Shown one piece after another: positions 1 to 43,812 of a stretch of 64,000 nucleotides of DNA. The DNA lies in the NCBI RefSeq assembly GCF_012844235.1, contig NZ_JABAGR010000001.1, positions 124,001 to 188,000 on the forward strand, written 5' to 3'. The DNA comes from Parafannyhessea umbonata. Lineage in GTDB: Bacteria; Actinomycetota; Coriobacteriia; Coriobacteriales; Atopobiaceae. The position numbers were made by a program, and so were the translations under genes. Numbering within the stretch: the stretch's first letter is position 1; every line of letters begins with the position of its first letter. The notes below the pieces were generated by a model that was not told the origin of the DNA, did not search any database, and worked only from the letters and a program-made list of their open reading frames with translations.

Positions 1-198
1 CGCAAGGAGTACTGGCAGGTCGTGAGCCTGCGGAAGGAGCCCGCGTTCGCCACGCAGTGCGTGCGCTGCGGAAAGTGCGAGTCGCACTGCCCGCAGCATC
101 TGCCCATCCGCGACGCGCTTCCCCAGGCGGACCGTGACCTCAGGCCCCTGCACTACCGCATCGCGGGCGTCGTGGCCAGGAAGTTCGCCCTCGGCTAG
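1..198 (+). CDS. Aldo/keto reductase with C-terminal 4Fe-4S motif (3' end only)
   Basis: This is the last 65 codons of a gene that begins before the window; the stop TAG is at 196-198. The visible part carries a ferredoxin-type cluster motif, C20-x2-C23-G-K-C26-x3-C30-PQHLPI, as found at the C-terminus of the ferredoxin-containing aldo/keto reductase family (CxxCGKCxxxCPQxLPI). The catalytic TIM barrel is outside the window, so the substrate cannot be judged. Its stop codon overlaps the stop of the convergent transporter gene by two to three bases, leaving no room for a terminator between them. Confidence 0.75.
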   Translation, partial: RKEYWQVVSLRKEPAFATQCVRCGKCESHCPQHLPIRDALPQADRDLRPLHYRIAGVVARKFALG

Positions 199-1205
199 GG
201 GCGCTCTCCCTTCCGCGCGGCCTGGCGCGCACGCGGGTCGCGGTTCACGATCACGATGCCCACGGAGACGAGCGCGAGCGCGACCGTGGCGCGAAGCGGG
301 TCGATCGCGGACGCCTCCCCCAGCAGCAGCGCCGAGAGCACCACGCCAAACACGGGGTTCATGAAGCCGAACACGGCAACGCGCGACACGGGGTTTGCCG
401 AGAGCAGCATGGACCACATCGTGTAGGCGGCCGCGGAGATGAAGCCCATGTACGCAAGCAGCGCGAGCGCGGCCGGCCGGGACGGCTGGAGCCTGCCTCC
501 CGTGGCAAGGCCGATCGCCGTCAGCACGACGCCGCCGACGAGGAACTGCCACCCGCTCAGCAGCACGGGGTCGTGGCGCTTCGAGAACTCCCTGATGAGG
601 CAGCTCGACATCGCCGCGGCGATGGTGGAGAGAAACACGAGCCCCTCGCCCGCGAGGCTGAACTCTAGGGTCCCGCCCGACTGCAGGTTCACGAGGAGGA
701 CGCCCGCGAAGCCGACGACGCACCCGATGACCTTGCGTGCGTCGAGCCGCTCCTGCCTGAAGGCGAGCGCGGCGAGCAGGATAACGATGAAGGAGGCGCT
801 CGCCTCGATGATGGAGCTTGCGACGCCCGACGCACGCGACAGGCCAGGGTAGAACAGCCCATACTGGAGCACCGTCTGAAAGAGCGACAGACAGAGGATC
901 GCCTTCCAGTCAGTCGCCCTCGGCAGCAGCGGGCGACCCCTCATGACGCTCATGGCGACGACCACCATGCACCCGGCGACGAAGAAGCGCACGCCCGCGA
1001 ACAGAAGCTGGGAGGACGTCGCGCTTGACGCTATGCCAAACAGGACGTTTCCTATCTTCGTGCATGGGAAGGCGGAGCCCCACAATAGGCAGCTCGCCAT
1101 GGCAAGCGCCAGCACGCCTCCCGTGCTGGAAAGGAAGGAGTTCCTGCGCGACTCGCGCGCGCCTATGGTTGCCTGCGAAGCGTTCTCTGACACCTTTTGC
1201 ACCAA
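195..1205 (-). CDS. EamA/DMT-superfamily transporter
   Basis: A 336-residue integral membrane protein with about ten hydrophobic helices in two repeats, typical of EamA (drug/metabolite transporter) exporters. The first helix includes the motif LLWGSAFPCTKIG, which resembles the W-G-[ST]-x-F start of EamA domains. The likely start is TTG at 1205 (MVQKVSEN), preceded by GTAGGG at ribosome-binding distance and lying 3 nt after the stop of the upstream membrane-protein gene, so the two are probably co-transcribed. The C-terminus ends in a basic tail (NRDPRARQAARKGERP). The substrate is unknown; DMT proteins export amino acids, purines or other metabolites. No regulatory signal was found. Confidence 0.85.
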   Translation of the reverse strand: MVQKVSENASQATIGARESRRNSFLSSTGGVLALAMASCLLWGSAFPCTKIGNVLFGIASSATSSQLLFAGVRFFVAGCMVVVAMSVMRGRPLLPRATDWKAILCLSLFQTVLQYGLFYPGLSRASGVASSIIEASASFIVILLAALAFRQERLDARKVIGCVVGFAGVLLVNLQSGGTLEFSLAGEGLVFLSTIAAAMSSCLIREFSKRHDPVLLSGWQFLVGGVVLTAIGLATGGRLQPSRPAALALLAYMGFISAAAYTMWSMLLSANPVSRVAVFGFMNPVFGVVLSALLLGEASAIDPLRATVALALVSVGIVIVNRDPRARQAARKGERP

Positions 1206-1208
1206 ACC

Positions 1209-1772
1209 CTACCTGCGCGCCTTGCGCATCTCCCTCTTCACGTTCCTGAGCCTTGACTCGCACTGCTCCCGGTACTTCGCATACTCCTGCTGGGAGCGCT
1301 GGTCCCTCCCCACGACCTCGCCAAGCACCTTGAGCTGTCGCCTCGCCTGCTTCTCGTGGCCGGTGTTGACGAGGGCGTCGACCGTCGCCTGCGTGAACTG
1401 CGCGACGAGGCTGGGGTCGTGCTCGCCCCTCGCCCAGGACTCGTAGTCTGAGAGCAGCCTCGCCACGTCGCCCGTGCGGTTGTACCGCTCGAGGATGGGG
1501 TTGCACGTGTCCTTCACGTCGAGCTTCATGCGCGTCTTGCGTATGGTCGTCATCACGAAGAGCCCCGCGAGAACGATGACCACGAGGATCGCGAGACCGA
1601 TGAGGAACGTGGTCGTCGTGTCGAGCCTCGCGACGTTCTGAAGGAGGTAGACGACCACGAGCGTCGCGACGAGGGCGGCGATCACGATCCCCCTCTGGCT
1701 CGAGGCTGTCATCTGGGCGCCTTTGGGGCCGCCGCCCTTGCCGCTCGCCTTGCTCTTCTCGTCCTGCGCCAT
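1209..1772 (-). CDS. Hypothetical two-helix membrane protein
   Basis: A 187-residue protein I do not recognise. I place the start at the ATG at 1772 (MAQDEKSKASGK) because GGGAGG lies seven bases upstream; the longer reading frame to 1832 has no such site. A short lysine-rich N-terminus is followed by two hydrophobic segments at about residues 27-49 and 53-78, separated by a few residues, so the protein looks like a membrane hairpin. A basic, helical cytoplasmic domain follows (residues about 80-187, rich in R, E and Q, ending KREMRKARR). It lies about 95 bp downstream of the TerB/ATPase/helicase operon on the same strand and 3 nt before the DMT transporter. It could be read through from the defence operon, but nothing links it functionally. 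Confidence 0.65.
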   Translation of the reverse strand: MAQDEKSKASGKGGGPKGAQMTASSQRGIVIAALVATLVVVYLLQNVARLDTTTTFLIGLAILVVIVLAGLFVMTTIRKTRMKLDVKDTCNPILERYNRTGDVARLLSDYESWARGEHDPSLVAQFTQATVDALVNTGHEKQARRQLKVLGEVVGRDQRSQQEYAKYREQCESRLRNVKREMRKARR

Positions 1773-1868
1773 GAGAACCTCCCATCCGATTCCTGCCTGC
1801 ACTACCTTAGCGGTTTGCCGCCGGCCGCGCATCCCCTCGGTGATGCGGGGGTGCGCGTCGGCGCACGG

Positions 1869-4280
1869 CTAGCTCGAAAGCCGGCGGGCCATGCCGGGAA
1901 GGAGCCCCTCCTGGTCGCTCTCGGGCGCGTCCGGCCATCCCAGCACGCGATCGACCATCCCCTCGACGTCGAGCACCCCGTATGCGAACCCCTTGCGGAT
2001 GAGCTCCTCCGGGACGAACTCGTCGTACTTGTCGAAGTAGGGCACCTCGCCGGGGTAGACGAGCTCGAGCGGGTCCGAGAGCGACGCCGCCGCGCGCTTC
2101 ACGACCCGGTAGAACGTCTTGGCATCCGCCCTCATGGTGAACTGCATGAAGTAGGGGCGCGAGGAGTCGAGTCCCTTCAGTCCAAGCTCTGTCGCGCACT
2201 TGATCTTGATGAGGCGCTCGAGGGCGAGAAACGCATAGCTTCCGAGCCAGGGGAAGAGGCACCACGCGGTACCGCCAACGCAGATGAGCGGCTCCGCCGT
2301 GACGTGGGCGTTCCTTGCGACGTGGCGCGCCTGCTCAAGCCGTGCGCGGGCATTCCGACGGAGGTATGGGTACAACCTGTCCTCCCGCAGCACGAGGCGC
2401 ATGCGCTCGAGGATGCGGGTGTTCACGTCGCCGGCCACCATGCCGAAGTAGGCGGGCACCTTGCCCTTGATGGGAGAGCACTCGATGAGGTGGCGCTTGT
2501 AGTCGATCTCCTCGATCACCCACGTCGCCCCGGCGATGGCGATGCGCTCCCCGACGGGTGGCGGCTGGACGATGGTGCCCAGCTCCTGCGACTCGCTCCG
2601 TACCGTGAACTCCTCGTCCTCGCTGAAGACGGCGTAGAACTTGAAGTTGTTCGTCACGCGCTCGCCGGCGATGCCGACGATGAGCCCGCCCTCCTCGGTC
2701 TGCTGGACGTGGTCGATTGATATGAGGTGACGCAGGAGCACTCGGTAGTCGTCCGCCGAGACCCTGTGGAACGGCGTCAGCGTGAGCACGCGGCGTGCGA
2801 GCTCGGCGGGGGAGAGCTCGCCGGAGCTTGCGAGCGTGGCCATCGTCTGGTGGTACAGCAGGCTGTAGGGAAGGCCGTCCAACCGTGGCGGCTCGACCCA
2901 GCGGTCCTCGACGTAGAGCTGGACGAGGGCGATTCCTTGGAGGAGCTTCCACGGTATGGTCTCGGGCAGGAGGGCGCGAGACTCCGGCTCGTCCTCGCGC
3001 ATGAGGAACCACATCTCGCTCGGCTGTCCGCGCCTGCCCGTCCTGCCCATGCGCTGCAGGAACGAGCTCACCGTGAACGGCGCGTCGATCTGGAACGCCC
3101 TCTCGAGCCGGCCGATGTCAATGCCGAGCTCGAGGGTGGCAGTCGTGACGGTCGTGAGGTTCGCGTCCTCCTCCCGCATTATCTCCTCGGTCGACTCGCG
3201 CAGGCTCGCGGAGAGGTTGCCGTGGTGAATCAGGAAGCGGTCCGACTCGCCCGTGGCCTCGCAGTACTGCCTGAGCGTGGTGCAGACCGACTCCGCCTCC
3301 TCCCTGGAGTTCGCGAACACAAGGCACTTGTGGCCGCGCGTGTGCTCGAAGACGTATGCGAGCCCCGGGTCCGCATATACGGGGGCGGCGTCGGTGGGGG
3401 CCTCCGCCGCGGGTTGCTCCGGGTCGGGGAGCGGGCGTTCCGCGACGTCCTCCGCCCGCTGCTCGGGGGAGGGAACGCGCTCCTCCCTGGCAAGTCCCGT
3501 CGGCATCTCGTACGTGGGCGCCCCCGCGTCCCTCGCGTCGTGCCCGAGGCCGTCGGACCCACGTTCGGGCGCCTGGGGGCCGGACGTGTAGAAGTGCTCC
3601 ATGGATATGCGCCAGCGCTCCTTCGGGCCCTCGAGCTTTGGGATGACGCAGCCGCGCCCCGTGCCGGCGCTCAGGTACCGTCCGGTCGCGACGGGGTCGC
3701 CGATGGTTGCGGAGAGGCCTATGCGCCTGGGGTTTACCCCGGCGAGCCTACTGAGTCGTTCGATGCAGCAGAGGCACTGGTCCCCGCGGTCCCCGCGCAG
3801 CAGCGAGTGAACCTCGTCTATCACGACGTACCGAAGGTCGCCGAATATGCGCCCTATGGCTGAGTGGCGGTGCAGGAGCATCGCCTCCAGGGACTCCGGC
3901 GTAATCTGGAGTATGCCCGAGGGGTGCTTCATCATCTTTCTCTTGTGAGACTGGGAAACGTCGCCGTGCCAGTGCCAGACCGGTATGTCTGCCTCGGCGC
4001 ACAGGTCCTCGAGACGGATGAACTGGTCGTTGATGAGCGCCTTCAGGGGGCCTATGTAGATGGCGCCGACGGACGCGGGCGGATCCTCCCAAAACTCGGT
4101 CAGTATGGGGAAGAACGCGGCCTCCGTCTTGCCGGACGCCGTGGATGCGGTGAGAAGGACGTTCTCGTCCGTGTCGAATATCGCCTGAGCCGCCGCAACC
4201 TGCACCGACCTCAGGCTTTGCCAGTCGTGCTCGTAGATGAAGTCCTGTATGAAGGGCGCGTAGCGATCGAAGGTGGACAT
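1869..4280 (-). CDS. sngC: DEAH-type superfamily 2 helicase, SngC-like (Shango)
   Basis: An 803-residue helicase with Lhr-like organisation. RecA1 shows Walker A (ASTASGKT, residues 45-52), DEVH (155-158) and SAT (190-192). RecA2 shows the arginine-finger motif QRMGRTGRRG (409-418). A proline/alanine/glutamate-rich insert without obvious fold (about 235-300) separates the two RecA domains. After the core there is a winged-helix and Lhr-like C-terminal region (about 430-800). The gene is last in the minus-strand operon, 14 bp after the ATPase gene, with a weak GGGGAAG ribosome-binding site. TerB protein, P-loop ATPase and helicase in this order is the composition reported for the Shango anti-phage system. 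The exact nucleic-acid substrate is not known from sequence. The motifs are intact, so it should be active. Confidence 0.8.
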   Translation of the reverse strand: MSTFDRYAPFIQDFIYEHDWQSLRSVQVAAAQAIFDTDENVLLTASTASGKTEAAFFPILTEFWEDPPASVGAIYIGPLKALINDQFIRLEDLCAEADIPVWHWHGDVSQSHKRKMMKHPSGILQITPESLEAMLLHRHSAIGRIFGDLRYVVIDEVHSLLRGDRGDQCLCCIERLSRLAGVNPRRIGLSATIGDPVATGRYLSAGTGRGCVIPKLEGPKERWRISMEHFYTSGPQAPERGSDGLGHDARDAGAPTYEMPTGLAREERVPSPEQRAEDVAERPLPDPEQPAAEAPTDAAPVYADPGLAYVFEHTRGHKCLVFANSREEAESVCTTLRQYCEATGESDRFLIHHGNLSASLRESTEEIMREEDANLTTVTTATLELGIDIGRLERAFQIDAPFTVSSFLQRMGRTGRRGQPSEMWFLMREDEPESRALLPETIPWKLLQGIALVQLYVEDRWVEPPRLDGLPYSLLYHQTMATLASSGELSPAELARRVLTLTPFHRVSADDYRVLLRHLISIDHVQQTEEGGLIVGIAGERVTNNFKFYAVFSEDEEFTVRSESQELGTIVQPPPVGERIAIAGATWVIEEIDYKRHLIECSPIKGKVPAYFGMVAGDVNTRILERMRLVLREDRLYPYLRRNARARLEQARHVARNAHVTAEPLICVGGTAWCLFPWLGSYAFLALERLIKIKCATELGLKGLDSSRPYFMQFTMRADAKTFYRVVKRAAASLSDPLELVYPGEVPYFDKYDEFVPEELIRKGFAYGVLDVEGMVDRVLGWPDAPESDQEGLLPGMARRLSS

Positions 4281-4294
4281 GTCTTCCCCGTCTG

Positions 4295-5683
4295 CTAGAT
4301 GCTGAACTCCGCAAAGTCGTCGGTGCGTTCCTCCCTAGACGCGGGAACGCTCTTCGCACGGGGCGAGGCGGCCGCCTCCTCGCGCTGCTCGACGGGAGTC
4401 TGCACGGGGGCGTTCATCTCCTCGCTCTGGAGCATTGCGTCGACGGTGAGCGTGGGGTTCTGGCTCAGGATGTCGAGCATCTCCACGAAGTCGCGAATGA
4501 CCTCGCGGGGAGTCAGGTGGGTGTCCGCGCCGACGCGCCCATACTCGACTTGCAGGAAGCGTACGAGGTCCTCCTGCGTGACGCTGCGCTCGTAGCCGAA
4601 GAGGCCGGCGTGGATGTCCGCGAGCTTCTCGATGAGGACGAGGAGCTCCTCGTGCGTGAGCGGCTGCAGCCTGATGACAGGCGCGAGCATGTCCACGAGG
4701 CCGCCCTGGGCGAAGCGCCCCTGCGTGAGGCGGCTGCGCAGCGCCTCGTACGAGTAGATGCCGCGACGGCGGTCCTCTATGGACTGGGGCGTGCCGCTCA
4801 TGATGATGCCGAGGTAGTGTGCCTTGCCCTGGAGGGTGTCGTTGTACATGGTGAGGATCTTCTCGTAGTTGTACTGGCGACTGATCGCGTTCGGGATCTT
4901 GTAGAGGTTCACGAGCTCATCCACAAGCACGATGAGACCCTGGTAGCCGGCACCGCGCAGGAAGGTGGCGAACAGCTTGAGGTAGTCATACCAGTCATCG
5001 TCCCCTATGGCGATGTTGACGCCAAGCTCCTGGCGCGCCTCCGTCTTGTTGCGGAACTCGCCACGGAACCACTTCGTGACGCTTGCCTTTGTGTCGTCGT
5101 CTCCCTCGAGGTGGGCGCGCCAGTACATGGTGAGCAGGCGCGCGAAGTCGTAGCCGTGCACAAGCTCCTGCAGGTCGCGGATGGTGGTGAGGATGCGGCG
5201 CTCGACGGCGTCCGAGAAGCCGGGCGCGTCCGGGCCTATGCCGTCCTCGAGCGTGACCTGGGACTCCACGTTGGACACCCAACGGTCGAGTATGAGGTTC
5301 AGGGCCCCGCCCTCCGGCTGCGTCTTGGTGGAGAGGTTGCGTATGAGCTCGCGGTACGTGGCGAGGCCCTGGCCGTTGCCGCCCTGCAGGCGACGCTCCG
5401 GCGAGAGGTCCGCGTCGCACACGACGAAGCCCTTGCCCATGGCGTGGTTGCGGATGGTCTGAAGCAGGAAGCTCTTGCCGGCGCCGTAGCGACCCACGAC
5501 GAAGCGGAAGCTTGCCCCGCCCTCTGACACAAGGTCTAGGTCATGCAGCAGGGCCGCGATCTCTCTTTCGCGCCCGACCGTGATGTAGGGAAGGCCGATG
5601 CGCGGGACGACGCCGCCCTTGAGTGAGTTGACGATCACCGCCGCGATGCGCTTGGGCACGCGCCTCTGCTGTTGAGCTGCCAT
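4295..5683 (-). CDS. sngB: P-loop ATPase of the DUF2791/BrxD type, SngB-like (Shango)
   Basis: A 462-residue ATPase. It starts with a basic stretch (RRVPKRIAAVIVNSLKGGVVP) common to BrxD-like ATPases. Walker A is G-R-Y-G-A-G-K-S (residues 64-71) and Walker B is LIVLVDEL with D255-E256. The remainder is mostly helical; a glutamate/glutamine-rich and alanine-rich tail (about 410-455) is likely disordered. The start ATG at 5683 has an excellent TAAGGAGG site. It is the middle gene of the TerB-ATPase-helicase operon and has a 76-bp leader after the TerB gene; that leader contains a LexA-type palindrome. The family is related to BREX BrxD ATPases. The assignment to SngB rests on gene neighbours as well as on the domain. 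Confidence 0.8.
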   Translation of the reverse strand: MAAQQQRRVPKRIAAVIVNSLKGGVVPRIGLPYITVGREREIAALLHDLDLVSEGGASFRFVVGRYGAGKSFLLQTIRNHAMGKGFVVCDADLSPERRLQGGNGQGLATYRELIRNLSTKTQPEGGALNLILDRWVSNVESQVTLEDGIGPDAPGFSDAVERRILTTIRDLQELVHGYDFARLLTMYWRAHLEGDDDTKASVTKWFRGEFRNKTEARQELGVNIAIGDDDWYDYLKLFATFLRGAGYQGLIVLVDELVNLYKIPNAISRQYNYEKILTMYNDTLQGKAHYLGIIMSGTPQSIEDRRRGIYSYEALRSRLTQGRFAQGGLVDMLAPVIRLQPLTHEELLVLIEKLADIHAGLFGYERSVTQEDLVRFLQVEYGRVGADTHLTPREVIRDFVEMLDILSQNPTLTVDAMLQSEEMNAPVQTPVEQREEAAASPRAKSVPASREERTDDFAEFSI

Positions 5684-5735
5684 GGGACCCCCTCCTTATG
5701 GTGTGACCAACCATTGTAGACCATGGAGGAGAACT

Positions 5736-5749
5736 AGAACAGATGTTCT
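5736..5749. promoter_or_regulatory. LexA-type SOS box ahead of sngB
   Basis: AGAACAGATGTTCT is a perfect inverted repeat (6-base arms, 2-base centre) containing GAAC-N4-GTTC, the core of the Gram-positive/actinobacterial LexA box. It lies 11 nt after the stop of the TerB gene and 53 nt before the ATG of the ATPase gene, in the only sizeable gap of the operon. No lexA gene is in the window, so binding is inferred. Confidence 0.55.
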
Positions 5750-5759
5750 TTTGTCAATT

Positions 5760-7871
5760 TTAGAGCCCGCAGATGTCGCGAACGTCCTCGACGTAGTCCG
5801 CAACGAGGCGCGGCTCACCGTCGACGTACTCGATGGCTGTGTCGCCAAGCTCGTCAAACAGCTTCTCGTTAATGGAGTCTATCAGCACGGATGCCATGGG
5901 CTTACCGGGGCCAAGAAGGTCCGAGAAGGGCTTACCCTCGGACACGCGTGCAACGACCTGGAGCTCGAGGTCGTCCAGCCCGCACGGTATGTCGTCGTCC
6001 ACCGCCGTGGTCGGGTCTGGTTGCGTGGCCAGCGTTGCCGCCGCGGGCATGTTGCTTGTGGCGAGCGAAGCCGCGGCGACGGGGGCCGCGCTCTTCTCGC
6101 CTGAGCCGGCGGGCGGGGCGATGGGGAAGCCCTCGGCCGTAGTTGTTGGCTCGTCCTCGATCTCCTCGTCCACGAGGAGGGCCTCGCGCGTGGTTGCCGC
6201 CGCGGCGCGTATGCCACCGAGCTTGGAGAGGTCGATCACTATCTTGCGGCTCTCTGCCTCGAGCTCGCGCTGCCGCTGCTCTGCGGACGCCTGGACGATG
6301 ATCTTCTCGAGGTACTTTGCGAGGGGGCGCGGCTTGAGGGCGCGTGGGTCGTCCCAGTCCTCGCGCATCTGGCGGTCCATGGCGCGCAGGATGCGGCCGA
6401 GGTCGCGGCTCTTACCCGCGTGCTCGTAGCCGCGGCGGATGAACCAGCGCCCGGCGAGCGTGGTCACGCGCGTGCACGCGTCGATGCGGTACGTGGGGGA
6501 GGGCAGCTCCTTGGGCAGCGTGCACGGGAGGTCCGGGAACGGGAACCAGCCGACGTTGGACTCCCATCCCACGAGGCCGTCCACCAGGTTGGTCTTGCGG
6601 CGCTTGCCGCAGTGCCTGGCAAGCGCGCGGAACACGGCCGCGCCGACCGCGGCGGCGGACTGGGGGTTGTTTCGCAGGAACGGTGAGCGCTCCACGTTGT
6701 ACGAGGACAGCACGGCCATCGCCTTCCAGACGTCTGCGTCGGAGGGAACGTGCGCGGGCATGTCCTGCGGCGTGAGGTCGCGGGCGCCGGCCTCGCAGAG
6801 GACCGCCCGTTCCGCCGTGCGAAGCGTGGCGACCGCTTGGGCGAAGGCGCGCTCGTCCGCCGAGGTGGCGAACTCTGCCGGGAGGTTGTGGAGCACCGCG
6901 TAGTCGCGAATCCAGCGGCGCGCGTCGAATGCGAGGCCAGAGGCCATGCCGTCCGCGTCGAGCTCCGCCGCGCGGTCTCGCAGGCGGATCAGCTCCTTCA
7001 GGCAGGGCATGCCGGGCTTTGCGCCGACGCCGTTCACGAGCTCCGCCGCGAGGATGTGGCCGTACGTGTAGGGGATGCGGTCCTCGCGGTGTGCGCGCCA
7101 CGCGGTGCGCCACGCAAAGTAGCCGCGGAGCTCCTCGTTCGAGAGGTCGCGGTACGACACGCTGTAGCGGTACCTAACGCCAAAAGGCGACGGGGCGGAG
7201 TCGTCCTCGTAGTCGGCGGCAAGGCGCGCCTGTGCCACGAACAGGCTGACGCCGGTGAGCCTGGTGCCGTTGGGCTGCGGCTCGGTCTCGAGCCGGCGCA
7301 GCTCGCGCAGGGTCTGGGGCAGGTTTCTGCCGGCGCGCGCGGCCGCCTTGCGGGCGTCTTGCCGCGGGTGGGACGGCGCGACGTCCGGGTGGGGCCACGT
7401 CCAGCCGTCGTACGGCCAGCCGGAGGAGGGTCCGTCCGCATCGAGTGGCGCGTCGAGCTCGTCCAGCCAGCTGCGCTGGCGGAGGGCGTCGTCATGCGTG
7501 GGCCGCGGACGGGGCGGAAGCTCCGCACGCGCCGCGCGGCGAAGGGCGGCGCGCTCTTCTCGCCCGGGGGCGCCGGGCAGCGGGGCGGGGCGTGCGTCTG
7601 CGGCGTCGGCGTGGGTGGCGTGCACATGGGTTGCGGCGGAGGTCGTCTCGGATGCCGCGCTCGCCGCGGCCTTGCGCTCGCGGCGCAGGTCGGCGCCGGT
7701 GCGCAGGATCGGCTCGTCGCCGAAGGTCCTCTGCGAGAAAATCGCGCGCTCCCGCTCGGAGGCGCCCCGCATAATGCGGTCCAGCACCTGGCGCGCACGG
7801 CTGTCGCCCTCGTCGGGGGTGCCGTCACGGCCATCCCGCACGCGCTCGTCCCTCATGGGGTCCTGGTCCAC
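5760..7871 (-). CDS. sngA: TerB-N/TerB-C domain protein, SngA-like (Shango)
   Basis: A 703-residue protein if translation begins at the GTG at 7871; this is preferred over the ATG at 7907 because GGGAGGGAGG lies four bases upstream of the GTG. The first 190 residues are basic and low-complexity (linker with many A, R, P). A TerB-N-like region (about 213-333) includes DLSNEELRGYFAWRTAWR. A TerB-C-like region (about 460-580) includes RWFIRRGYEHAGKSRDLG and SKLGGIRAAAATTREALLV, then a linker and a small C-terminal domain (about 640-703). TerB-N/TerB-C proteins are reported partners of DNA-processing helicases and of the Shango defence system. Copies of the dispersed GGGCGAGAAG motif (one exact, one with a mismatch) fall in the two linkers. 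A possible -10 (TAGAAT on the minus strand, 7954-7959) lies upstream. Confidence 0.8.
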   Translation of the reverse strand: MDQDPMRDERVRDGRDGTPDEGDSRARQVLDRIMRGASERERAIFSQRTFGDEPILRTGADLRRERKAAASAASETTSAATHVHATHADAADARPAPLPGAPGREERAALRRAARAELPPRPRPTHDDALRQRSWLDELDAPLDADGPSSGWPYDGWTWPHPDVAPSHPRQDARKAAARAGRNLPQTLRELRRLETEPQPNGTRLTGVSLFVAQARLAADYEDDSAPSPFGVRYRYSVSYRDLSNEELRGYFAWRTAWRAHREDRIPYTYGHILAAELVNGVGAKPGMPCLKELIRLRDRAAELDADGMASGLAFDARRWIRDYAVLHNLPAEFATSADERAFAQAVATLRTAERAVLCEAGARDLTPQDMPAHVPSDADVWKAMAVLSSYNVERSPFLRNNPQSAAAVGAAVFRALARHCGKRRKTNLVDGLVGWESNVGWFPFPDLPCTLPKELPSPTYRIDACTRVTTLAGRWFIRRGYEHAGKSRDLGRILRAMDRQMREDWDDPRALKPRPLAKYLEKIIVQASAEQRQRELEAESRKIVIDLSKLGGIRAAAATTREALLVDEEIEDEPTTTAEGFPIAPPAGSGEKSAAPVAAASLATSNMPAAATLATQPDPTTAVDDDIPCGLDDLELQVVARVSEGKPFSDLLGPGKPMASVLIDSINEKLFDELGDTAIEYVDGEPRLVADYVEDVRDICGL
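7556..7565 (-). repeat. Dispersed GGGCGAGAAGNNC element in the sngA N-terminal linker
   Basis: An exact copy in the sense strand of sngA, read as G-R-E-E, in the low-complexity linker. It is followed by AGC, keeping the C at position 13. See the finding on the dispersed 13-mer for all positions. Confidence 0.7.
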
Positions 7872-7997
7872 GGTGCCTCCCTCCCGCGCTGGCCCGACGG
7901 TGGGCAAGGGGCCGCACCCACGAGGGCGCGGCCCGATGCGATCGATACCGTAGATTCTAACCGCAACGCATGGCGCGGGCGAACGGCGAGGCCGAGT

Positions 7998-9134
7998 CTA
8001 GTCCTCGCCGCCCCAGACCTTGCGCGCGACGCGCTTGATGAGCGCGACCTTCGCCCACTGCTCGTCCTCCGTCAGCTTGTTGCCGATCTCGCACGAGGCG
8101 AAGCCGCACTGCGGGGACAGGTAGAGGTTCTGGAGCGGCACGTACTGCGCGGCCTCGCGGATGCGACGCTCCAGCAGGTCCTCGTCCTCGAGCCCCGGCT
8201 GCTTGGACGTGACGAGCCCCAGCACGACCTTCTTGCCGGGCGCCACGTGGGCCAGGGGCTCGAAGCCGCCGGCGCGCGGCGTGTCGAACTCCAGGTAGAA
8301 CGCGTCCACGTCCTCCTTCGCAAACAGGTACGGCGCCACGGGGTCGTAGCCGCCCTCGAACGCGTAGGTGGAGTGGTAGTTGCCGCGGCACACGTGCGTC
8401 GTGACGGTGAGGTCGTCCGGCTTGCCCTCCAGCGCGGCGTTGTTGAGCCGCACGCCCAGCTCGCACACCTTCTGGATGTCGACGGGCGCGAGGCCGGTCT
8501 TCGCGACGAAGTCGTGGTCGCAGTAGATGCCCCACGTGCAGTCATCAAGCTGGATGTTGCGGCAGCCTGCGGCGTACAGGTCTGCGATCACGGTGCGGTA
8601 TGCGGCCGCGATGTCCGCCGCGAGCTCCTCGTTGGTGGCGTAGACGCTGCGCAGGCTCTCCACCTGGCCGTCCGTGCGGTCCAGGATGACCTCGCTGTAC
8701 GTCTGGATCGGCGCGGGGATGGTCTGCTTCGCCACCTGGCCGTCGCCCTCGAGCGCCTTCACAAACTCGAAGTGCCGCACGAACGGATGGTTGGCGCCGT
8801 CGATCTTGCCCACGACGACCGCCGTGTCTGCGGTGGTCTCCTCGTCGTGGAACTGGTAGCCCTCGCGGGCGGTGCGGCGCTCGACGCCGCCGAGCCCCCA
8901 CATAAAGTCAAGGTGCCAGTAGCTGCGGCGGAACTCGCCGTCCGTGATCACGTGCAGACCGGCCTCCTTCTGCTTTGCCACGAGGTCGCGAATCGCCACG
9001 TCCTCGACGCAGGTGAGCTGCTCGTCCGTGATGAGGCCGGCCGCGTGGTCCGCGCGGGCCTGCTTGAGGACGTCCGGCCTGAGGAAGCTGCCGACCACGT
9101 CGAAGCGGAAGGGGGAGTTGTGCTTGTAGGACAT
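7998..9134 (-). CDS. MetE-like homocysteine methyltransferase (YxjG/YxjH type)
   Basis: A 378-residue protein similar to the C-terminal catalytic half of cobalamin-independent methionine synthase, the short form seen in YxjG/YxjH. Recognisable parts are the N-terminal DVVGSFLRP, VITDGEFRRSYWHLDFMW (about 62-79), IQLDDCTWGIYCDHDF, THVCRGNYHSTYAFEGGYD with the His/Cys pair expected to bind zinc, and LSPQCGFAS near the end with the second zinc cysteine. It probably transfers a methyl group to homocysteine or another thiol; the short family does not always use methyl-tetrahydrofolate triglutamate. The ATG at 9134 has a weak AAAGG site. The upstream region carries a 7-bp inverted repeat (9232-9250). 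I saw no SAM riboswitch. Confidence 0.8.
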   Translation of the reverse strand: MSYKHNSPFRFDVVGSFLRPDVLKQARADHAAGLITDEQLTCVEDVAIRDLVAKQKEAGLHVITDGEFRRSYWHLDFMWGLGGVERRTAREGYQFHDEETTADTAVVVGKIDGANHPFVRHFEFVKALEGDGQVAKQTIPAPIQTYSEVILDRTDGQVESLRSVYATNEELAADIAAAYRTVIADLYAAGCRNIQLDDCTWGIYCDHDFVAKTGLAPVDIQKVCELGVRLNNAALEGKPDDLTVTTHVCRGNYHSTYAFEGGYDPVAPYLFAKEDVDAFYLEFDTPRAGGFEPLAHVAPGKKVVLGLVTSKQPGLEDEDLLERRIREAAQYVPLQNLYLSPQCGFASCEIGNKLTEDEQWAKVALIKRVARKVWGGED

Positions 9135-9181
9135 GTCAAGACCTTTCGTCTGGGTTGCCGTCTTCTGGCGCGCGGGCGGCT

Positions 9182-9191
9182 CTTCTCGCCC
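9182..9191 (-). repeat. Dispersed GGGCGAGAAGNNC element in the MetE-like 5' leader
   Basis: An exact copy lying 48 nt upstream of the MetE-like start, in the same orientation as that gene, followed by AGC. Confidence 0.7.
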
Positions 9192-9231
9192 GGCGTCCTA
9201 GAGTATCGGGCTTCGCGGGGTAATAGAAAAC

Positions 9232-9250
9232 TATCGGTTATCTACCGATA
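9232..9250. promoter_or_regulatory. Inverted repeat, putative operator of the MetE-like gene
   Basis: TATCGGT and ACCGATA form perfect 7-base arms around a 5-base centre, 98 bp upstream of the methyltransferase start. A further TATCGG half-site lies about 20 bases closer to the gene. The regulator is unknown. Confidence 0.4.
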
Positions 9251-9367
9251 TCTATAGAGAAAAGCTATGGCAACGAGTTGGTACGCGCTTGTGGCTGAAC
9301 GACGCTTCGCCATTGGCGACGCCATCGACTAGCTTTGTGCGGAGCTTTACTTCCCTTTTGCGTGTAC

Positions 9368-9399
9368 TAGCGGAAGTGAACTGTGATTCACTTCCGCTA
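9368..9399. promoter_or_regulatory. Inverted repeat 1 upstream of fic, putative operator
   Basis: TAGCGGAAGTGAA and TTCACTTCCGCTA are perfect 13-base arms with a 6-base spacer. It is the first of two repeats of the same family in front of fic. Because the Fic protein carries a C-terminal winged helix, autoregulation is a reasonable guess. Confidence 0.6.
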
Positions 9400-9408
9400 A
9401 GGTGCTCC

Positions 9409-9440
9409 TAACGGAAGTGAAGTATCATTAACTTCCGATA
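9409..9440. promoter_or_regulatory. Inverted repeat 2 upstream of fic, putative operator
   Basis: TAACGGAAGTGAA and TTAACTTCCGATA pair at 11 of 13 positions around a 6-base spacer. The repeat centre is 41 bp from that of repeat 1, about four helical turns. It ends 33 bp before the fic ATG. Confidence 0.6.
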
Positions 9441-9473
9441 GGGAGTTTCTAGAGGAAGCGATGGGGGGCGTGG

Positions 9474-10679
9474 ATGGACGAGAAGAGCACTTGGCCTTTC
9501 GTTGGGTACGAGGAGCTTGGATGGCATGTGGACGATGATGACCGCGCGCTCATGTCAAAAAGTGCGCGTAGGAAAATAGGGGAGACCTACTGCGCCGCGG
9601 TGCCACCCATGATTGCGCAGCTTACGCCCGAGGCTCCTGCCGACCTGCTTCGCCATGCGATGGAGGTGGAATCGGAGCTCATCCGCTTTGACGCGCTGCT
9701 TTCGGTGCGCGGCTACGACCTGCCAGCCCTGCTGCTCAGGAGCGAGTCCTCCGCGAGCTCGCGCATCGAGAACCTGACTGCAAGCGTGCGAAACGTCGCC
9801 CTGGCGGAGCTCGACGCAACGACGCCCAGAAACTCGCGCGAGATTGCGGGCAACGTCCGCGCCATGCGTGAGGCTATCGAGCTTAAGGGGGAGCCGAGTG
9901 TGGAGGACGTGCTCCGCGTGCATGCGAGCCTCATGAGCGTGACGGGCGAGTCCTTTGGCGGCGAGCTGAGGGACGAGCAGGTGTGGATAGGGGGCAGCGC
10001 CTTTGGGCCGCAGGGGGCTGCGTTCGTGCCGCCGTCACAGGAGCGGGTGCCCGCCCTTCTCGACGACCTCATGGCGTTCGTCCGGCGCGACGACCTCGAT
10101 CCCGTGGTCCAGACGGCCGTGGCACACGCGCAGTTCGAGACCATCCATCCGTTTGTGGATGGCAACGGGCGAACGGGACGTGCGCTGCTACACCGCTGGC
10201 TTTGCTACCACGACGTGCTGAGGCATGCAACCCTGCCCATATCTTCCGGCTTGCTGCACGATGTGGATTCGTACATGGGCGCGCTCCAGAGCTATCACGA
10301 CGGCGACGTGCGGCCGATCGTGGGAGAGCTTGTGGATGCCCTTGAGGTTGCGCTTGCGTTGGCGCAATCCGCGACGCGGCAGATAGACGACATAATCGAG
10401 CGCTGGCAGGAGCAGATGGGCGAGCGCAGGGGCTCTGCCATACGGAGGCTTCCGGCCGTGCTAGTGGCGCAGCCCGTCGTGAGCGTCGCCCATGTGGCGG
10501 ACCATCTGCAGATCACCCCTAGGGCTGCCCGTGACGTTATCGCGCGGGCGTGCGAGTACGGTATGCTCACGCCCATGGGAAACCGCCGTCGCGGGGTGTT
10601 CTACCAGGCGGACGAGCTGCTTGACGTGCTGGAGCAGATGACGTCGCGCCCGGCCATGCGCAGGATGCTCGCTCGCTAG
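9474..10679 (+). CDS. Fic-family AMP-transferase with winged-helix domain
   Basis: A 401-residue Fic protein. A Fic_N region (about 35-110) contains the inhibitory helix motif S95-x3-E99-N100, typical of class II Fic proteins that hold themselves inactive. The catalytic Fic motif is HPFVDGNGRTGR (H225 to R236), complete with the histidine base. A C-terminal winged helix (about 325-390) includes LQITPRAARDVIARA. Fic enzymes transfer AMP from ATP to a hydroxyl of a target protein; the target cannot be told from sequence. The ATG at 9474 is chosen because the ATG at 9461 is out of frame; GGGGGGCG precedes it. Two inverted repeats in front suggest tight control, perhaps by its own winged helix. 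Confidence 0.88.
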   Translation: MDEKSTWPFVGYEELGWHVDDDDRALMSKSARRKIGETYCAAVPPMIAQLTPEAPADLLRHAMEVESELIRFDALLSVRGYDLPALLLRSESSASSRIENLTASVRNVALAELDATTPRNSREIAGNVRAMREAIELKGEPSVEDVLRVHASLMSVTGESFGGELRDEQVWIGGSAFGPQGAAFVPPSQERVPALLDDLMAFVRRDDLDPVVQTAVAHAQFETIHPFVDGNGRTGRALLHRWLCYHDVLRHATLPISSGLLHDVDSYMGALQSYHDGDVRPIVGELVDALEVALALAQSATRQIDDIIERWQEQMGERRGSAIRRLPAVLVAQPVVSVAHVADHLQITPRAARDVIARACEYGMLTPMGNRRRGVFYQADELLDVLEQMTSRPAMRRMLAR

Positions 10680-10711
10680 GCGGGGCCTGCGGCGACGTGT
10701 CCGCAACGCAA

Positions 10712-10750
10712 AGGCGGGGCCGGACGCCATGTGCGCATCCGACCCCGCCT
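10712..10750. terminator. Hairpin between convergent fic and purL
   Basis: AGGCGGGGCCGGA and TCCGACCCCGCCT pair with one mismatch around a 13-base loop. It sits between two convergent stop codons and could act in both directions. There is no long T tract. Confidence 0.5.
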
Positions 10751-10774
10751 GCTGCTACCTTGCGCCGACCGCCT

Positions 10775-13700
10775 CTACTTGAAGTACGCGACGCCGCCCT
10801 CGAAGAGCTTCTGGTACTTGTTGCCCGGCACGTTCTTGTACAGGCCGTTGCCGGAGCGCTCCGTGTGGCCCATCTTGCCCAGCACGCGGCCGTCCGGGCT
10901 CGTGATGCCCTCGATGGAGAGCACCGATCCGTTGGGGTTCACGTCCAGGTCCATGGAGGGCACCCCGTCCTCGTCCACGTACTGCGTGGCGATCTGGCCC
11001 GCGGCCTCCATCTGGGCAAGCAGCTCGTCGGATGCCACGAAGCGGCCCTCGCCGTGGCTGATGGCGATGGTGTCCACCTCGCCCACGGGAACCTGCGACA
11101 GCCAGGGCGAGAGGTTCGAGGCCACGCGGGTGCGAACGAGCCTGCTCTGGTGCCGGCCGATGGTGTTGAAGGTGAGGGTGGGGCACTTCTCGTCCATGGG
11201 ACGGATGTCGCCGTACGGCACCAGCCCCAGCTTCACCAGCGCCTGGAAGCCGTTGCAGATGCCCAGCATCAGGCCGTCGCGGGCCTGCAGCAGGTCGCGC
11301 ACGGCCTCCGTCACCTGCGGCGCGCGGAAGAACGCCGTGATGAACTTCGCGGAGCCGTCCGGCTCGTCGCCGCCGCTGAAGCCGCCGGGGATCATGATGA
11401 TCTGGCTCTTGCGCACCTCCTCCACGAAGGCGTTCGTGCTCTCGGCGACCGCCTCGGGCGTGAGGTTGTTGATGATGAACGTCTCGGCCTCCGCGCCGAC
11501 GCGCTCGAACGCGGCCGCGGAGTCGTACTCGCAGTTGTTGCCCGGGAACACGGGAATCACCACGCGCGGCCTGGGGACCTTCACCAAGGGCGCCGGGCGA
11601 GAAACGCCGTGCTCCGCCGCGTCAAACGTCACGGTCTTGACGGCCTCGCCCTTCTGGCGATACGGGAAGACGGACTCGATGCCCTCCTCCCAGGCCTCCT
11701 GCAGCCCGGCGAGGTCGAGCTCCTGGCCCTCGACCCACATCTTGTACTCCGCGGACGTGCCGCCCAGGTACTCCACGTTAAAGCCCTCGCGGTCCGTCGG
11801 GATGAACGTGCCGTCGGCCACCTCGATCACGAAGCTGCCGTACGCGAGCCTGAACAGCCTGTCGGCCGCGAACTCGTTCACGAGGCCGAAGCCGATGTGG
11901 TTGCCCACGGCGCTCTTGAACAGCTGCTCGGCCAGGCAGCCGTAGCCGGGGGTCGACGCGGACAGCACCACGCCGTAGCCAATGTGCTCGTGCACGAAGT
12001 CGAGCACCTTCAGGAAGCTCTGCGCGTCCGGCGTCACGCCGTCGGCCTTGTACGTGGGGCTCACGAGCCACAGCTGGCTGTCCGGGCGCTTGAACTCCGG
12101 CGACACGATGTCGTCTACGCTGCCCAGGCCGGTTGCGAACGAGACGAGCGTCGGTGGCACGTCCAGGTCCTCGAACGAGCCGGACATGGAGTCCTTGCCG
12201 CCGATGGAGCCGATGCCCAGGTCGAGCTGGGCCATGAGCGCGCCCAGCACGGCGGCCGTCGGCTTGCCCCAGCGCTCCGGGACGTCGCGCAGCTTCTCGA
12301 AGTACTCCTGGAACGTGAGGTACATGGCCTTGCGGTCGATGCCGGCCGCGGCGAGCTTCGCCACGGACTCCACGACCGATAGGTACGCGCCCGTGAACTG
12401 GTTCTCGCTCATGAGGTAGGGGTTGAAGCCCCACGCCATGCCGCTGACCGTCGTGGTCTCGCCAAACACCGGCAGCTTCGCGACCATGGCCATCGACGGC
12501 GTCAGCTGGTACCTGCCGCCAAACGGCATGAGCACCGTCGCCGCGCCGATGGTGGAGTCGAAGCGCTCGGAAAGGCCCTTGTTGGACGCGACGTTCAGGT
12601 CGCCCACGAGGGAGCGCATGCGGGCCTCGAGGGTGTCGCCCGCAAAGTCGGGCTGGTAGGAGCCCTGCCTCTCCACGTGCACGTCCTGGTGCTTCGGGGC
12701 GCCGTTGGACGAGAGGAACTCGCGGCTCACGTCGCAGATCGTCTCGCCGTCCCACACCATACGCAGCCGCGGCTCCTTGGTCACCTTCGCCACGACGGTG
12801 GCCTCGAGGTTCTCCTCGCGTGCGTAGCGCATGAACTCGTCCACGTCCTCGGGCGCAAGCGCCACGGCCATGCGCTCCTGCGACTCGCTGATGGCGAGCT
12901 CGGTGCCGTCGAGGCCCTCGTACTTCTTCGGCACCTTGTTCAGGTCGATGTACAGGCCGTCCGCCAGCTCGCCGATCGCGACGGAGACGCCGCCCGCGCC
13001 AAAGTCGTTGCAGCGCTTGATGAGGCGGCACGCGTCCTCGCGGCGGAACAGGCGCTGGAGCTTGCGCTCGGTCGGGGCGTTGCCCTTCTGCACCTCCGCG
13101 CCGTCCTTCTCGAGGGACTCGACGTTGTGCGCCTTGGAGCTGCCCGTCGCGCCGCCGATGCCGTCGCGGCCGGTGCGGCCGCCCAGAAGCACGATCTTGT
13201 CGCCGGGCGCGGGGCACTCGCGGCGCACGTGGCTCGCGGGCGTCGCGCCCACGACGGCGCCGATCTCCATGCGCTTCGCGACGTAGCCGGGGTGGTACAG
13301 CTCGTCCACCTGGCCGGTCGCAAGTCCGATCTGGTTGCCGTACGAGGAGTAGCCGGCGGCCGCCGTGCGCACGATCTTGCGCTGCGGGAGCTTGCCCTTG
13401 AGCGTCTCGCTCACAGGGACGGTGGGGTCGCCGGCGCCGGTCACGCGCATGGCCTGGTACACGTAGCTGCGGCCGGACAGCGGGTCGCGGATGGCGCCGC
13501 CGATGCAGGTGGCCGCGCCGCCAAACGGCTCGATCTCGGTCGGGTGGTTGTGCGTCTCGTTCTTGAACAGGAACAGCCAGTCCTCGTCCTTGCCGTTCAC
13601 GTCCACCTTCACCTTCACGGTGCAGGCGTTGATCTCCTCGGACTCGTCCAGGTTCTTCAGGATGCCCTTGCTCTTGAGGTACTTCGCGCCGATGGTGCCC

Positions 13701-14503
13701 ATGTCCATCAGGCAGACGGGCTTCTCGTCGCGGCCAAGCTCGTGGCGGACCTCGAGGTAGCGCTCGAACGCGGCCTTCACCACGGCGTCGTCGATCGCGA
13801 CGTTCTCAAGCCGCGTGCCAAACGTGGTGTGGCGGCAGTGGTCCGACCAGTACGTGTCGATCATCTTGATCTCGGTGATCGTGGGGTCGCGCTTCTCGCC
13901 CTTGAAGTACTTCTGGCAGAACTGGATGTCCGCGAGGTCCATGGCGAGTCCGCGCTCGTCGATGAAGTCCTGCAGCTGCTTCTTCGTGAGCTTGCCGAAC
14001 CCGGTCAGGGTCTCGACCATCGGCGGCTTCGGGTAGTCGACCTTCAGGGTCTTGCGGGTGGACAGCGACGCCTCGCGCGCCTCGACGGGGTTGATCACGT
14101 AGTGCTTGATGGCCTCAACGTCCGCGTCGGTCAGCTTGCCCTCGAGGTAGTACAGCTTCGCGGAGGCAACCGTGGGGCGCTCGCCCTGGCTGATGAGCTG
14201 GATGCACTCGCTCGCGGAGTTCGCGCGCTGGTCGAACTGGCCGGGCAGGAACTCGACGGCGAACACCTTCGCGCCCCTCGCCGCGGGGCGGCGCGTGGTG
14301 GCGACGTCGGACTGCGGCTCGCTGAAGACCGTGGGGATGCACTTCTCGAACAGTGACTTCGAGATTCCCTCCACGTCGTAGCGGTTGACGATGCGCAGGC
14401 CCTCGAGGGCGCCCACGCCCAGGGTGTGGCGCAGCTCGTGCCCAAGCTGCTTTGCCTCTACGTCGAATCCCGGCTTCTTCTCTACGTACACACGTGAGAC
14501 CAT
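10775..14503 (-). CDS. purL: Phosphoribosylformylglycinamidine synthase (large, single-chain)
   Basis: A 1242-residue FGAM synthase for step four of purine synthesis: FGAR plus glutamine and ATP gives FGAM. The synthase core has two AIRS-like halves, with KNETHNHPTEIEPFGGAATC and RECPAPGDKIVLLGGRTGRDG in the first and GGKDSMSGSF in the second. The C-terminal glutamine amidotransferase domain (from about residue 975) has VFPGNNCEYD, the nucleophile motif LGICNGFQAL and the histidine in ISHGEGRF. Synthase and glutaminase are in one chain, so purS and purQ are not needed. The start ATG at 14503 follows GGAAAGG. The gene stands alone here, with no other pur gene nearby. One GGGCGAGAAG element (13892-13901) falls in the codons for KGEKRDP. 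Confidence 0.95.
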   Translation of the reverse strand: MVSRVYVEKKPGFDVEAKQLGHELRHTLGVGALEGLRIVNRYDVEGISKSLFEKCIPTVFSEPQSDVATTRRPAARGAKVFAVEFLPGQFDQRANSASECIQLISQGERPTVASAKLYYLEGKLTDADVEAIKHYVINPVEAREASLSTRKTLKVDYPKPPMVETLTGFGKLTKKQLQDFIDERGLAMDLADIQFCQKYFKGEKRDPTITEIKMIDTYWSDHCRHTTFGTRLENVAIDDAVVKAAFERYLEVRHELGRDEKPVCLMDMGTIGAKYLKSKGILKNLDESEEINACTVKVKVDVNGKDEDWLFLFKNETHNHPTEIEPFGGAATCIGGAIRDPLSGRSYVYQAMRVTGAGDPTVPVSETLKGKLPQRKIVRTAAAGYSSYGNQIGLATGQVDELYHPGYVAKRMEIGAVVGATPASHVRRECPAPGDKIVLLGGRTGRDGIGGATGSSKAHNVESLEKDGAEVQKGNAPTERKLQRLFRREDACRLIKRCNDFGAGGVSVAIGELADGLYIDLNKVPKKYEGLDGTELAISESQERMAVALAPEDVDEFMRYAREENLEATVVAKVTKEPRLRMVWDGETICDVSREFLSSNGAPKHQDVHVERQGSYQPDFAGDTLEARMRSLVGDLNVASNKGLSERFDSTIGAATVLMPFGGRYQLTPSMAMVAKLPVFGETTTVSGMAWGFNPYLMSENQFTGAYLSVVESVAKLAAAGIDRKAMYLTFQEYFEKLRDVPERWGKPTAAVLGALMAQLDLGIGSIGGKDSMSGSFEDLDVPPTLVSFATGLGSVDDIVSPEFKRPDSQLWLVSPTYKADGVTPDAQSFLKVLDFVHEHIGYGVVLSASTPGYGCLAEQLFKSAVGNHIGFGLVNEFAADRLFRLAYGSFVIEVADGTFIPTDREGFNVEYLGGTSAEYKMWVEGQELDLAGLQEAWEEGIESVFPYRQKGEAVKTVTFDAAEHGVSRPAPLVKVPRPRVVIPVFPGNNCEYDSAAAFERVGAEAETFIINNLTPEAVAESTNAFVEEVRKSQIIMIPGGFSGGDEPDGSAKFITAFFRAPQVTEAVRDLLQARDGLMLGICNGFQALVKLGLVPYGDIRPMDEKCPTLTFNTIGRHQSRLVRTRVASNLSPWLSQVPVGEVDTIAISHGEGRFVASDELLAQMEAAGQIATQYVDEDGVPSMDLDVNPNGSVLSIEGITSPDGRVLGKMGHTERSGNGLYKNVPGNKYQKLFEGGVAYFK

Positions 14504-14725
14504 TTACTGCCCTTTCCTCGGGAACGTGTGGGGTTGGCCCCTCAATCATAGCCCGCGACCGTGCGCAATGCGTCGCGGCCCCCGTAAATCCCTCGTTACG
14601 CGCAAAGTGCGCCAGCGCGTGCGGCGCGATCGCCACTCCGGGGGAATTAATGTCCACTCGCATTGCTAGAATCGATTCTCACATTCGGCCCGCGCGCCGG
14701 CGCGGGCCCGGGAGCTTTGGGGGCG

Positions 14726-15877
14726 GTGCGATTGAGGCTACTTCACCTGGCGGACCTTCACATTGGCAAGCGCGTGTGCGACTTTCCCATGATCGGCGAC
14801 CAGCGGCACGTCCTGGGGCAGGTGCTGGACCTGCTCCGCACGGGCGCGGTGGATGCGCTCCTGGTCGCGGGTGACGTGTATGACAAGTCGCAGCCCAGCT
14901 CGGAGGCCGTGGCGCTTGTGGACTGGTTCCTCCAGGGGGTGGCAGACTCCGGCGTCCCGGCGATCGTGATTCCCGGCAACCACGACTCCGCGGAGCGCGT
15001 GGCCTACGCGGGCGGGCTGCTGTCGCGCCAGGGCATCCACATGGCGCCGGCGTTCGACGGCCGCATAGAGCCCGTCATGCTCGCGGACGAGCACGGTCCC
15101 GTCGCGGTGTGGCCCATCCCGTTTCTGCACCCGGCGCAGATTCGCCACTTCCTGCCAGACGCGAAGGCGGACACGTACACGGACGCGTTCCGCGCGCTCG
15201 TGGCGTCGCTTCCGCTCGATGCGTCCGCAAGGAACGTCGCCGTGGCGCACCAGTTCGTGACGGCGGCGGGCGTGGCGCCCGAGCGCAGCGACTCAGAGGT
15301 CTCGGTCGGCGGGCTCGACAACGTGGACGCCGGCGTGTTCGACCCGTTCGACTACGTCGCGCTCGGCCACATCCACCGCGCGCAGCGCGTCGGGCGCGAC
15401 TGCGTGCGCTATGCCGGCTCGCTTCTGAAGTACTCGCTGTCAGAGGCGGACTACGACAAGTCCGCGCCCCTCGTGACGCTGGGTCCCAAGGGAGAAGAGC
15501 CCGGCATCGAGCTTGTGCCCCTCACGCCGCTGCACGACCTCAGGCGCATTCGCGGCCCGCTCGCGGAGCTCGTGAGCGCGGACGTCGTTTCCGCGGCGGA
15601 TGCGCAGGACTACCTGCACGTGGTCCTGACGGACCAAGACCCGCAGGTCAACGCCATGGCACGCCTGCGCGACGCCTACCCAAACGTCATGAGCATCGAG
15701 TACGACAACGCGCGCACGCGTGCCGCCGGCGCGCAGGCGGATGCGCCCACGGAGGAGCCGCGGGAAAGCCCGCTCGAGCTCTTCTCGCAGTTCTACGAGG
15801 CTCAGAACGGCGTCGCGCCCACGGAGCGCCAGCTTGCCATCGCGCGGGAGGAGCTCGAGGGGATAGGGGTGATGTAG
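14726..15877 (+). CDS. sbcD: Exonuclease SbcCD subunit D
   Basis: About 383 residues; the Mre11-like nuclease subunit that works with SbcC to cut hairpins and open DNA ends. All calcineurin-like phosphoesterase motifs are present: LHLADLHIGK, AGDVYDKSQPS, IPGNHDSAERV, VAVAHQFV and ALGHIHRAQRV. A C-terminal capping domain follows. The start is uncertain: I favour the GTG at 14726 (VRLRLLHLADLH) with GGGAG upstream; a TTG at 14732 is possible, and the longer frame back to 14663 adds a glycine-rich stretch not expected in SbcD. The TAG directly touches the ATG of sbcC, so the two are translationally coupled. Confidence 0.92.
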   Translation: MRLRLLHLADLHIGKRVCDFPMIGDQRHVLGQVLDLLRTGAVDALLVAGDVYDKSQPSSEAVALVDWFLQGVADSGVPAIVIPGNHDSAERVAYAGGLLSRQGIHMAPAFDGRIEPVMLADEHGPVAVWPIPFLHPAQIRHFLPDAKADTYTDAFRALVASLPLDASARNVAVAHQFVTAAGVAPERSDSEVSVGGLDNVDAGVFDPFDYVALGHIHRAQRVGRDCVRYAGSLLKYSLSEADYDKSAPLVTLGPKGEEPGIELVPLTPLHDLRRIRGPLAELVSADVVSAADAQDYLHVVLTDQDPQVNAMARLRDAYPNVMSIEYDNARTRAAGAQADAPTEEPRESPLELFSQFYEAQNGVAPTERQLAIAREELEGIGVM

Positions 15878-42839: not shown

Positions 42840-43790
42840 TTATTCCGAGCCGATGGAGTACTCGCTATACAGGTTTGCCCTAAACGTAGGATCTGTAGCC
42901 GCGCGAACGATATCGTCTTGTCGCCCATCCTCGTTAAGACGTGCGACAAGCTTCGCAAGCCGCTCCTCGCCGACTGTCTGGCCTTCTTCGAGTCCGATCT
43001 TGCGACCCTCGTCCAAGCCCAGCTTGTGTCCCTCGTCGAGTCCCAGCTGGCGACCTTCCTCAAGGCCAAGCTTGCGGCCCTCTGCGAGACCGAGCTCGCG
43101 ACCCTTGTCGACATTGAGCTGATCCTTGATTGCCTGCACCATGAACTCAAGCCTCCATTTGCGGTTGTCGAGGACGTGCTCCACGGCCTCGTTGAGCCTT
43201 GAGGAGAGCTCTCCCGTGACCTTTCGAGAGGAAATGTAGTCAAGGAGCTCGTTAACCCGTGGGCCCTCCTGCGGTTCCGTGGGTGAAGTGGCTGCGAGAA
43301 AGATGGTGTGCACCCCGTCGTCTAGGCAGAGGTCTGGGTCGTCCTCGCAACGGCTTTGGAAAGAGTATACCCTGCGTCCCAGCCCAAATAAATCGAACCC
43401 GCAGATGAATATGACGTAGGAATCCCTGAGGGAGCGATAGGGGGCACCCCGGCTAATCTGGGAAAGGGCAAGCATTGCGTGATAGTAGCGCGAGCGCTGC
43501 GGAAGCTCGTGCGTGTCAGTTGCCTGCATCTCGACGCTGTAGACCGTTCCCCTGGCGTCACGGACGTAGACGTCAAGGCGTACGCCGTGTCCGTCTTCGG
43601 TTACGTCGATGGCATCCTGACGTCCAACGTACTCGATCTTCTCGATGTCAGTGGAGAGAATTGCCTCGAGCACCTCCTTGCAGAGGTCCTCATCAAGCAT
43701 CACCTTTCCGAAGACGAAGTCGTTCGCGATGGTGAGAGATTTCCAACGGACCTCGAGCTCCTGAACCAGATTTCTGACGTCCTGCTCCAT
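42840..43790 (-). CDS. Rpn-family PD-(D/E)XK nuclease / transposase-like protein
   Basis: About 316 residues. The PD-(D/E)XK core lies at about 50-165, with D73 (VRLDVYV) and E87-M-Q89 (YSVEMQ) as the likely metal-binding residues and the family phrase FKSLTIANDFVFGKVM-like at the start (WKSLTIANDFVFGKVM, 16-31). Residues 230-269 are five tandem octapeptides G-x-x-[LI]-G-L-x-E, then a degenerate sixth. I choose the ATG at 43790 (MEQDVRNL) because GAGAGGAG precedes it; the ATG at 43808 has no site. A LexA-type box lies 23 bp upstream. Rpn proteins are nucleases that promote RecA-independent recombination; no transposon ends are visible here. Confidence 0.8.
   Translation of the reverse strand: MEQDVRNLVQELEVRWKSLTIANDFVFGKVMLDEDLCKEVLEAILSTDIEKIEYVGRQDAIDVTEDGHGVRLDVYVRDARGTVYSVEMQATDTHELPQRSRYYHAMLALSQISRGAPYRSLRDSYVIFICGFDLFGLGRRVYSFQSRCEDDPDLCLDDGVHTIFLAATSPTEPQEGPRVNELLDYISSRKVTGELSSRLNEAVEHVLDNRKWRLEFMVQAIKDQLNVDKGRELGLAEGRKLGLEEGRQLGLDEGHKLGLDEGRKIGLEEGQTVGEERLAKLVARLNEDGRQDDIVRAATDPTFRANLYSEYSIGSE
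42974..43103 (-). repeat. 24-bp tandem repeats in the Rpn gene
   Basis: Five to six 24-base units encode G-x-x-[LI]-G-L-x-E. The nucleotide sequences differ at third positions, so the array is not freshly duplicated. Such repeats are common in this family's C-terminus and probably vary in number between strains. Confidence 0.75.
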
Positions 43791-43812
43791 GTGCGCGCTC
43801 CTCTCCATGAAT

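Follow-up and report, generated by a model that had tools for sequence, protein, structure and literature searches.

Shango of Pseudomonas aeruginosa PA14 is a three-gene anti-phage system that was cloned with its native promoter (PMC10250203). It consists of a TerB protein, an ATPase and a DEAD/DEAH helicase, and all three PADLOC models (SngA, SngB and SngC) were matched by adjacent genes, in order, in the 64-kb stretch of Parafannyhessea umbonata DNA analyzed here (the window), which bears out the names sngA and sngB given in the first-pass annotation. SngB and SngC also gave weaker matches to the BrxD and BrxHI models of BREX/Pgl systems, but the SngB and SngC models scored far better, and no PglX or PglZ gene was noticed adjoining the operon in the open reading frame list of positions 1-16000. 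The locus differs from the described system in that sngBC appear to have a LexA-type promoter of their own, whereas the available part of the PA14 text makes no link between Shango and the SOS response or DNA damage (PMC10250203).

Two other phage defences resemble the present locus in being tied to damaged or replicating DNA, as far as the accessible parts of the two reports describe them (PMC10732053, PMC12278908). AbpAB is reportedly activated by mitomycin C independently of RecA and LexA (PMC10732053), and Hachiman is described in the available portion of its report as sensing DNA at the protein level (PMC12278908); the Shango link predicted here would instead be transcriptional.

Regarding the regulator, the Gram-positive LexA (DinR) box, in the descriptions available in part, shares with the present site the core GAAC-N4-G(T)TC, a position close before the gene and an occurrence at lexA, recA, dinB and ruvC of the same genome. 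The accessible text on Streptomyces venezuelae gives the LexA consensus tCGAAC-N4-GNNCGa; these boxes and those of the Shango host both tolerate one changed arm base, while the outer bases are TCGA in S. venezuelae and A/T here, and the Shango ATPase-helicase pair is not among the LexA targets given in that portion of the paper (PMC9380542). The same kind of LexA box search as used here had been applied to Firmicutes and Actinobacteria of the human gut, yielding an SOS meta-regulon to which HsdS, MraZ and CodV were newly assigned by prediction; the part of that text available, supplement aside, does not mention Shango (PMC3998124). The literature searched, part of which was available only in excerpt, yielded no report that connects Shango with LexA, and the one paper containing both words has them in unrelated passages. 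The mechanism and timing of Shango are not explained in the Shango literature searched, where a LexA link appears to be unreported.

The features of the locus are as follows:

5760-7907, minus strand: sngA, encoding a TerB_N/TerB_C protein of 715 aa (listed from the first TTG); PADLOC SngA, E = 1.7e-64
5752-5757, minus strand: TTGACA, alternative -35 element directly upstream of the box, from the sequence
5736-5749, minus strand: predicted LexA operator of the sngBC promoter; exact match, matrix score 18.9, 12-mer as at dinB, kept in same-genus genome G018
5713-5718, minus strand: TACAAT, likely -10 element, separated by 18 bp from the 12-bp core of the upstream box, from comparison with loci L156 and L079
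5691-5697, minus strand: AAGGAGG, ribosome binding site of sngB, from the sequence
4295-5683, minus strand: sngB, encoding a BrxC/BrxD-type ATPase of 462 aa; PADLOC SngB, E = 9e-191; Pfam BrxC_BrxD, E = 2.3e-168
1869-4280, minus strand: sngC, encoding a DEAD/DEAH (BrxHI-like) helicase of 803 aa; PADLOC SngC, E = 1.7e-274; Pfam DEAD and Helicase_C

The box in the sngA-sngB gap and the boxes of host SOS genes

The stop of sngA (5760) and the start of sngB (5683), both on the minus strand, are separated by a gap of 76 bp. Within it, AGAACAGATGTTCT was found as an exact match at 5736-5749 (AGAACATCTGTTCT when read on the minus strand), with the GAAC-N4-GTTC core at 5737-5748, in agreement with the position ahead of the ATPase and helicase genes assigned in the first-pass annotation. 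The description of the site as a perfect palindrome held for the arms, AGAACA and TGTTCT, and failed at the central GA, which is not self-complementary, leaving 12 of 14 positions.

The window was scanned with a matrix built from 69 recA, lexA and own SOS sites, Shango sites being excluded, and the Shango site ranked first with 18.9 bits, followed by a runner-up of 17.4 and a third site of 9.1. The window contains 2 exact matches to GAACN4GTTC and the 2.32-Mb genome 21, some of which fall within coding genes, compared with 83 genomic matches to the reversed control pattern. A second LexA box in the window, GAACAAACGTTC at 43814-43825 (17.4 bits), lies 6 bp before a gene for an Rpn-family recombination-promoting nuclease (42840-43808, minus strand).

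Analysis of the host genome revealed recA and one clear lexA; alignment of its product to solved LexA proteins showed the Ala-Gly cleavage site (RVAAG) and the Ser/Lys pair to be retained. The lexA promoter carries two boxes, GAACATATGTTT and GAACATCTGTTT, the latter only one base off the Shango box, while the recA promoter has GAACGGTTGTTC after TTGACA, and the 12-mer of the dinB box (DinB-type polymerase) is identical to that of Shango. The majority of the sites of the form GAACRNNYGTTC in this genome are at promoters of DNA-repair genes; such sites were found at recA, ruvCAB, dnaE, the DinB-type polymerase gene and a uvrA-like gene, and further ones at an AlkA-Ogt fusion, a radical-SAM DNA repair gene, mraZ and the Rpn nuclease gene. 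The LexA-type reading of the first-pass annotation, which had pointed to the host lexA and recA promoters as its check and to a different host box as its weak point, is upheld by the matrix score and by boxes of the same form at lexA, recA and dinB. The identical 14-mer AGAACAGATGTTCT was also noticed elsewhere, at 5520-5533 of L020 (G000:C24:124019), between same-strand genes for a uracil-DNA glycosylase and an aminotransferase. The promoter of the radical-SAM repair gene (L029, about 3735-3750) contains, adjoining TTGACA, another box of variant sequence, GAACACGTGTAC, identical to the one before sngB in L076.

On the minus strand, the box is followed by 18 bp, TACAAT, AAGGAGG and the ATG of sngB, in this order. 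Spacing and -10 element recur in L156 and L079, the element of L079 reading TATACT at the same distance from the box. The Shango box probably covers the -35 region of the sngB promoter. In the same-genus genome G018, box and TACAAT were kept, the flanks differ and TTGACA is replaced by TTGCCA; since this change accompanies an unchanged box, the case for TTGACA (5752-5757) as an essential -35 element is weakened. The sngC gene starts 14 bp after sngB and therefore probably shares its transcript. The region upstream of sngA in the window has no LexA box (best matrix score -9.4), which fits with the ATPase and helicase being controlled by damage separately from SngA.

Position of the box in related loci

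Box position was compared across 160 related Shango loci, including loci added from genus and family searches. In 98 of them sngA and sngB are coupled (gap of at most 20 bp), and 59 are uncoupled with enough upstream DNA. With 11.5 as the minimum score and 200 bp upstream of sngB as the search range, 51 of the 59 uncoupled loci had a box, compared to 0 of the 98 coupled loci (Fisher P = 3e-33, a value that measures association and not independent events, the loci being related by descent). The background elsewhere in the loci was 0.039 boxes per kb, equal to 0.0078 expected per 200 bp. Before sngA, the box was present in 63 of the 77 coupled loci with the sngA 5' end available (1.25 expected) and in 1 of 32 uncoupled loci. 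No box reached the threshold before sngB in the remaining 8 of the 59 uncoupled loci, one of which, L255, has a box before sngA. The closest database loci are coupled and carry the box before sngA instead of sngB. Among the coupled loci of Bacillota, 9 of 18 had a box before sngA, and the other half had none at the threshold used; in a plasmid-borne Shango of Paenibacillus, GAACGTGCGTTC stands immediately before TATAAT. This distribution in coupled and uncoupled loci indicates that the putative operator sits before whichever promoter drives sngBC.

The boxes comprise 22 different 12-mers and lie at three spacings from the -10 element (0, 6-7 and 17-21 bp). This variety of sequence and spacing points towards an operator under selection and away from a single frozen promoter handed down by descent.

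The recA and lexA promoters were searched in 16 genomes, most of them with a free-standing sngB promoter, chosen from 80 SngB loci. The recA promoters of these relatives had the exact box in 13 of 15 cases and a one-mismatch form in the other 2, at -111 to -119 relative to where the RecA domain match begins, while nearly all lexA promoters had two to four variant boxes, e.g., GAACGTCTGTAC, GTACAGATGTTC and GAACAAATGTTT. The sngB boxes of the relatives (GAACACGTGTGC, GTACATTCGTTC, GTACACTTGTAC and others) match their recA and lexA boxes in type, and in G006 the sngB box GTACATTCGTTC is present also in the lexA promoter. Conservation of the palindrome in orthologous loci, to which the first-pass annotation had tied its reading, was observed in the same-genus genome, where the box is unchanged, and 51 of 59 free-standing sngB promoters have a box of LexA type. 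In L038, near 8790, and in its sisters L039-L041 and L045 (Tractidigestivibacter/Olsenella-type), an extra GAACAAATGTTC was noticed just past the end of sngC.

Five Shango loci carried on plasmids of E. coli, Salmonella, K. oxytoca, Azospirillum and Yoonia gave no host-type box, the sngA start of the E. coli locus having been placed by analogy. It may be that only the Gram-positive branch has the SOS link, five proteobacterial loci being too small a sample for certainty.

Predicted LexA control of sngBC and alternative readings

On the evidence of the sequence, we consider it very probable that 5736-5749 is a LexA operator inside the sngBC promoter that gates sngBC by DNA damage. In the undamaged cell, LexA bound over the -35 region would keep expression of the ATPase and helicase genes, sngB and sngC, low. 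Once single-stranded DNA arose from DNA damage or from infection by a phage, RecA filaments would stimulate the self-cleavage of LexA, and sngBC would be switched on alongside recA, dinB, ruvCAB and uvrA. In this lineage, SngA would be made beforehand from its own box-less upstream region, so that gating by damage would fall on the motor pair, while in relatives with sngA and sngB on one transcript the operator before sngA would gate all three genes. The comparisons show the box, the box type of the host, the conservation of the box and its movement with the promoter, and from these we infer that LexA occupies the site, that damage induces sngBC and that the Shango proteins work against phage or in repair.

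That the palindrome is a functionless product of chance would be in line with the 21 exact matches in the genome, of which some fall within coding genes; this reading is scarcely credible, and is contradicted by the conservation of the box at 51 of 59 free-standing sngB promoters against a background of 0.039 per kb and by its exclusive placement before the promoter driving sngBC. It is also very unlikely that another repressor with nearly the same palindrome, a LexA-like or phage-type regulator, controls sngBC. The genome does contain a second, weak LexA-domain match at C24:111495, but this is below the family cut-off and the protein begins like a GntR-type regulator; moreover, the box varies between species in parallel with the lexA and recA boxes of each genome, and no regulator gene adjoins sngA-C in the open reading frame list.

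More weight, if still tentatively, can be given to the possibility that the site is indeed a LexA operator but that Shango of Coriobacteriia, with its BrxD-type ATPase and BrxHI/Lhr-like helicase, is mainly an SOS repair machine and not a phage defence. SngB is unusually common for a defence system, being present in 106 of 140 genomes of the family and in 128 of 298 genomes of the class (class sample), its divergence tracks that of RecA (Mantel r 0.69, 15 genomes), and the regulation of sngBC resembles that of repair genes. However, the PA14 system expressed in PAO1 protects against several phages (PMC10250203), Shango of Enterobacteriaceae is plasmid-borne, and vertical inheritance together with SOS control is compatible with defence.

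A broader reading, of about even probability, places Shango regularly in the SOS regulon, throughout Coriobacteriia and in part of Bacillota, where LexA would gate the ATPase-helicase pair through an operator kept at the promoter driving sngBC. As a machine gated by damage, Shango would in that case join phage defence and DNA repair and answer the RecA signal that also wakes prophages. The retention of the putative operator in many species, where it moves with the promoter, suggests a need for the ATPase-helicase pair after DNA damage. It raises the functional question of whether Shango acts on damaged or replicating DNA, and whether this is the DNA of the phage or of the host, and suggests that the signal that wakes prophages can set the timing of a defence system.

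Apart from Shango, a box GAACGACCGTTC was noticed at 3588 of L028 (G000:C12:225087), about 160 bp before mraZ and after an XerD-like gene; this site matches the mraZ prediction, and agrees with the MraZ and CodV predictions, given for the gut SOS meta-regulon in the available part of that study (PMC3998124).
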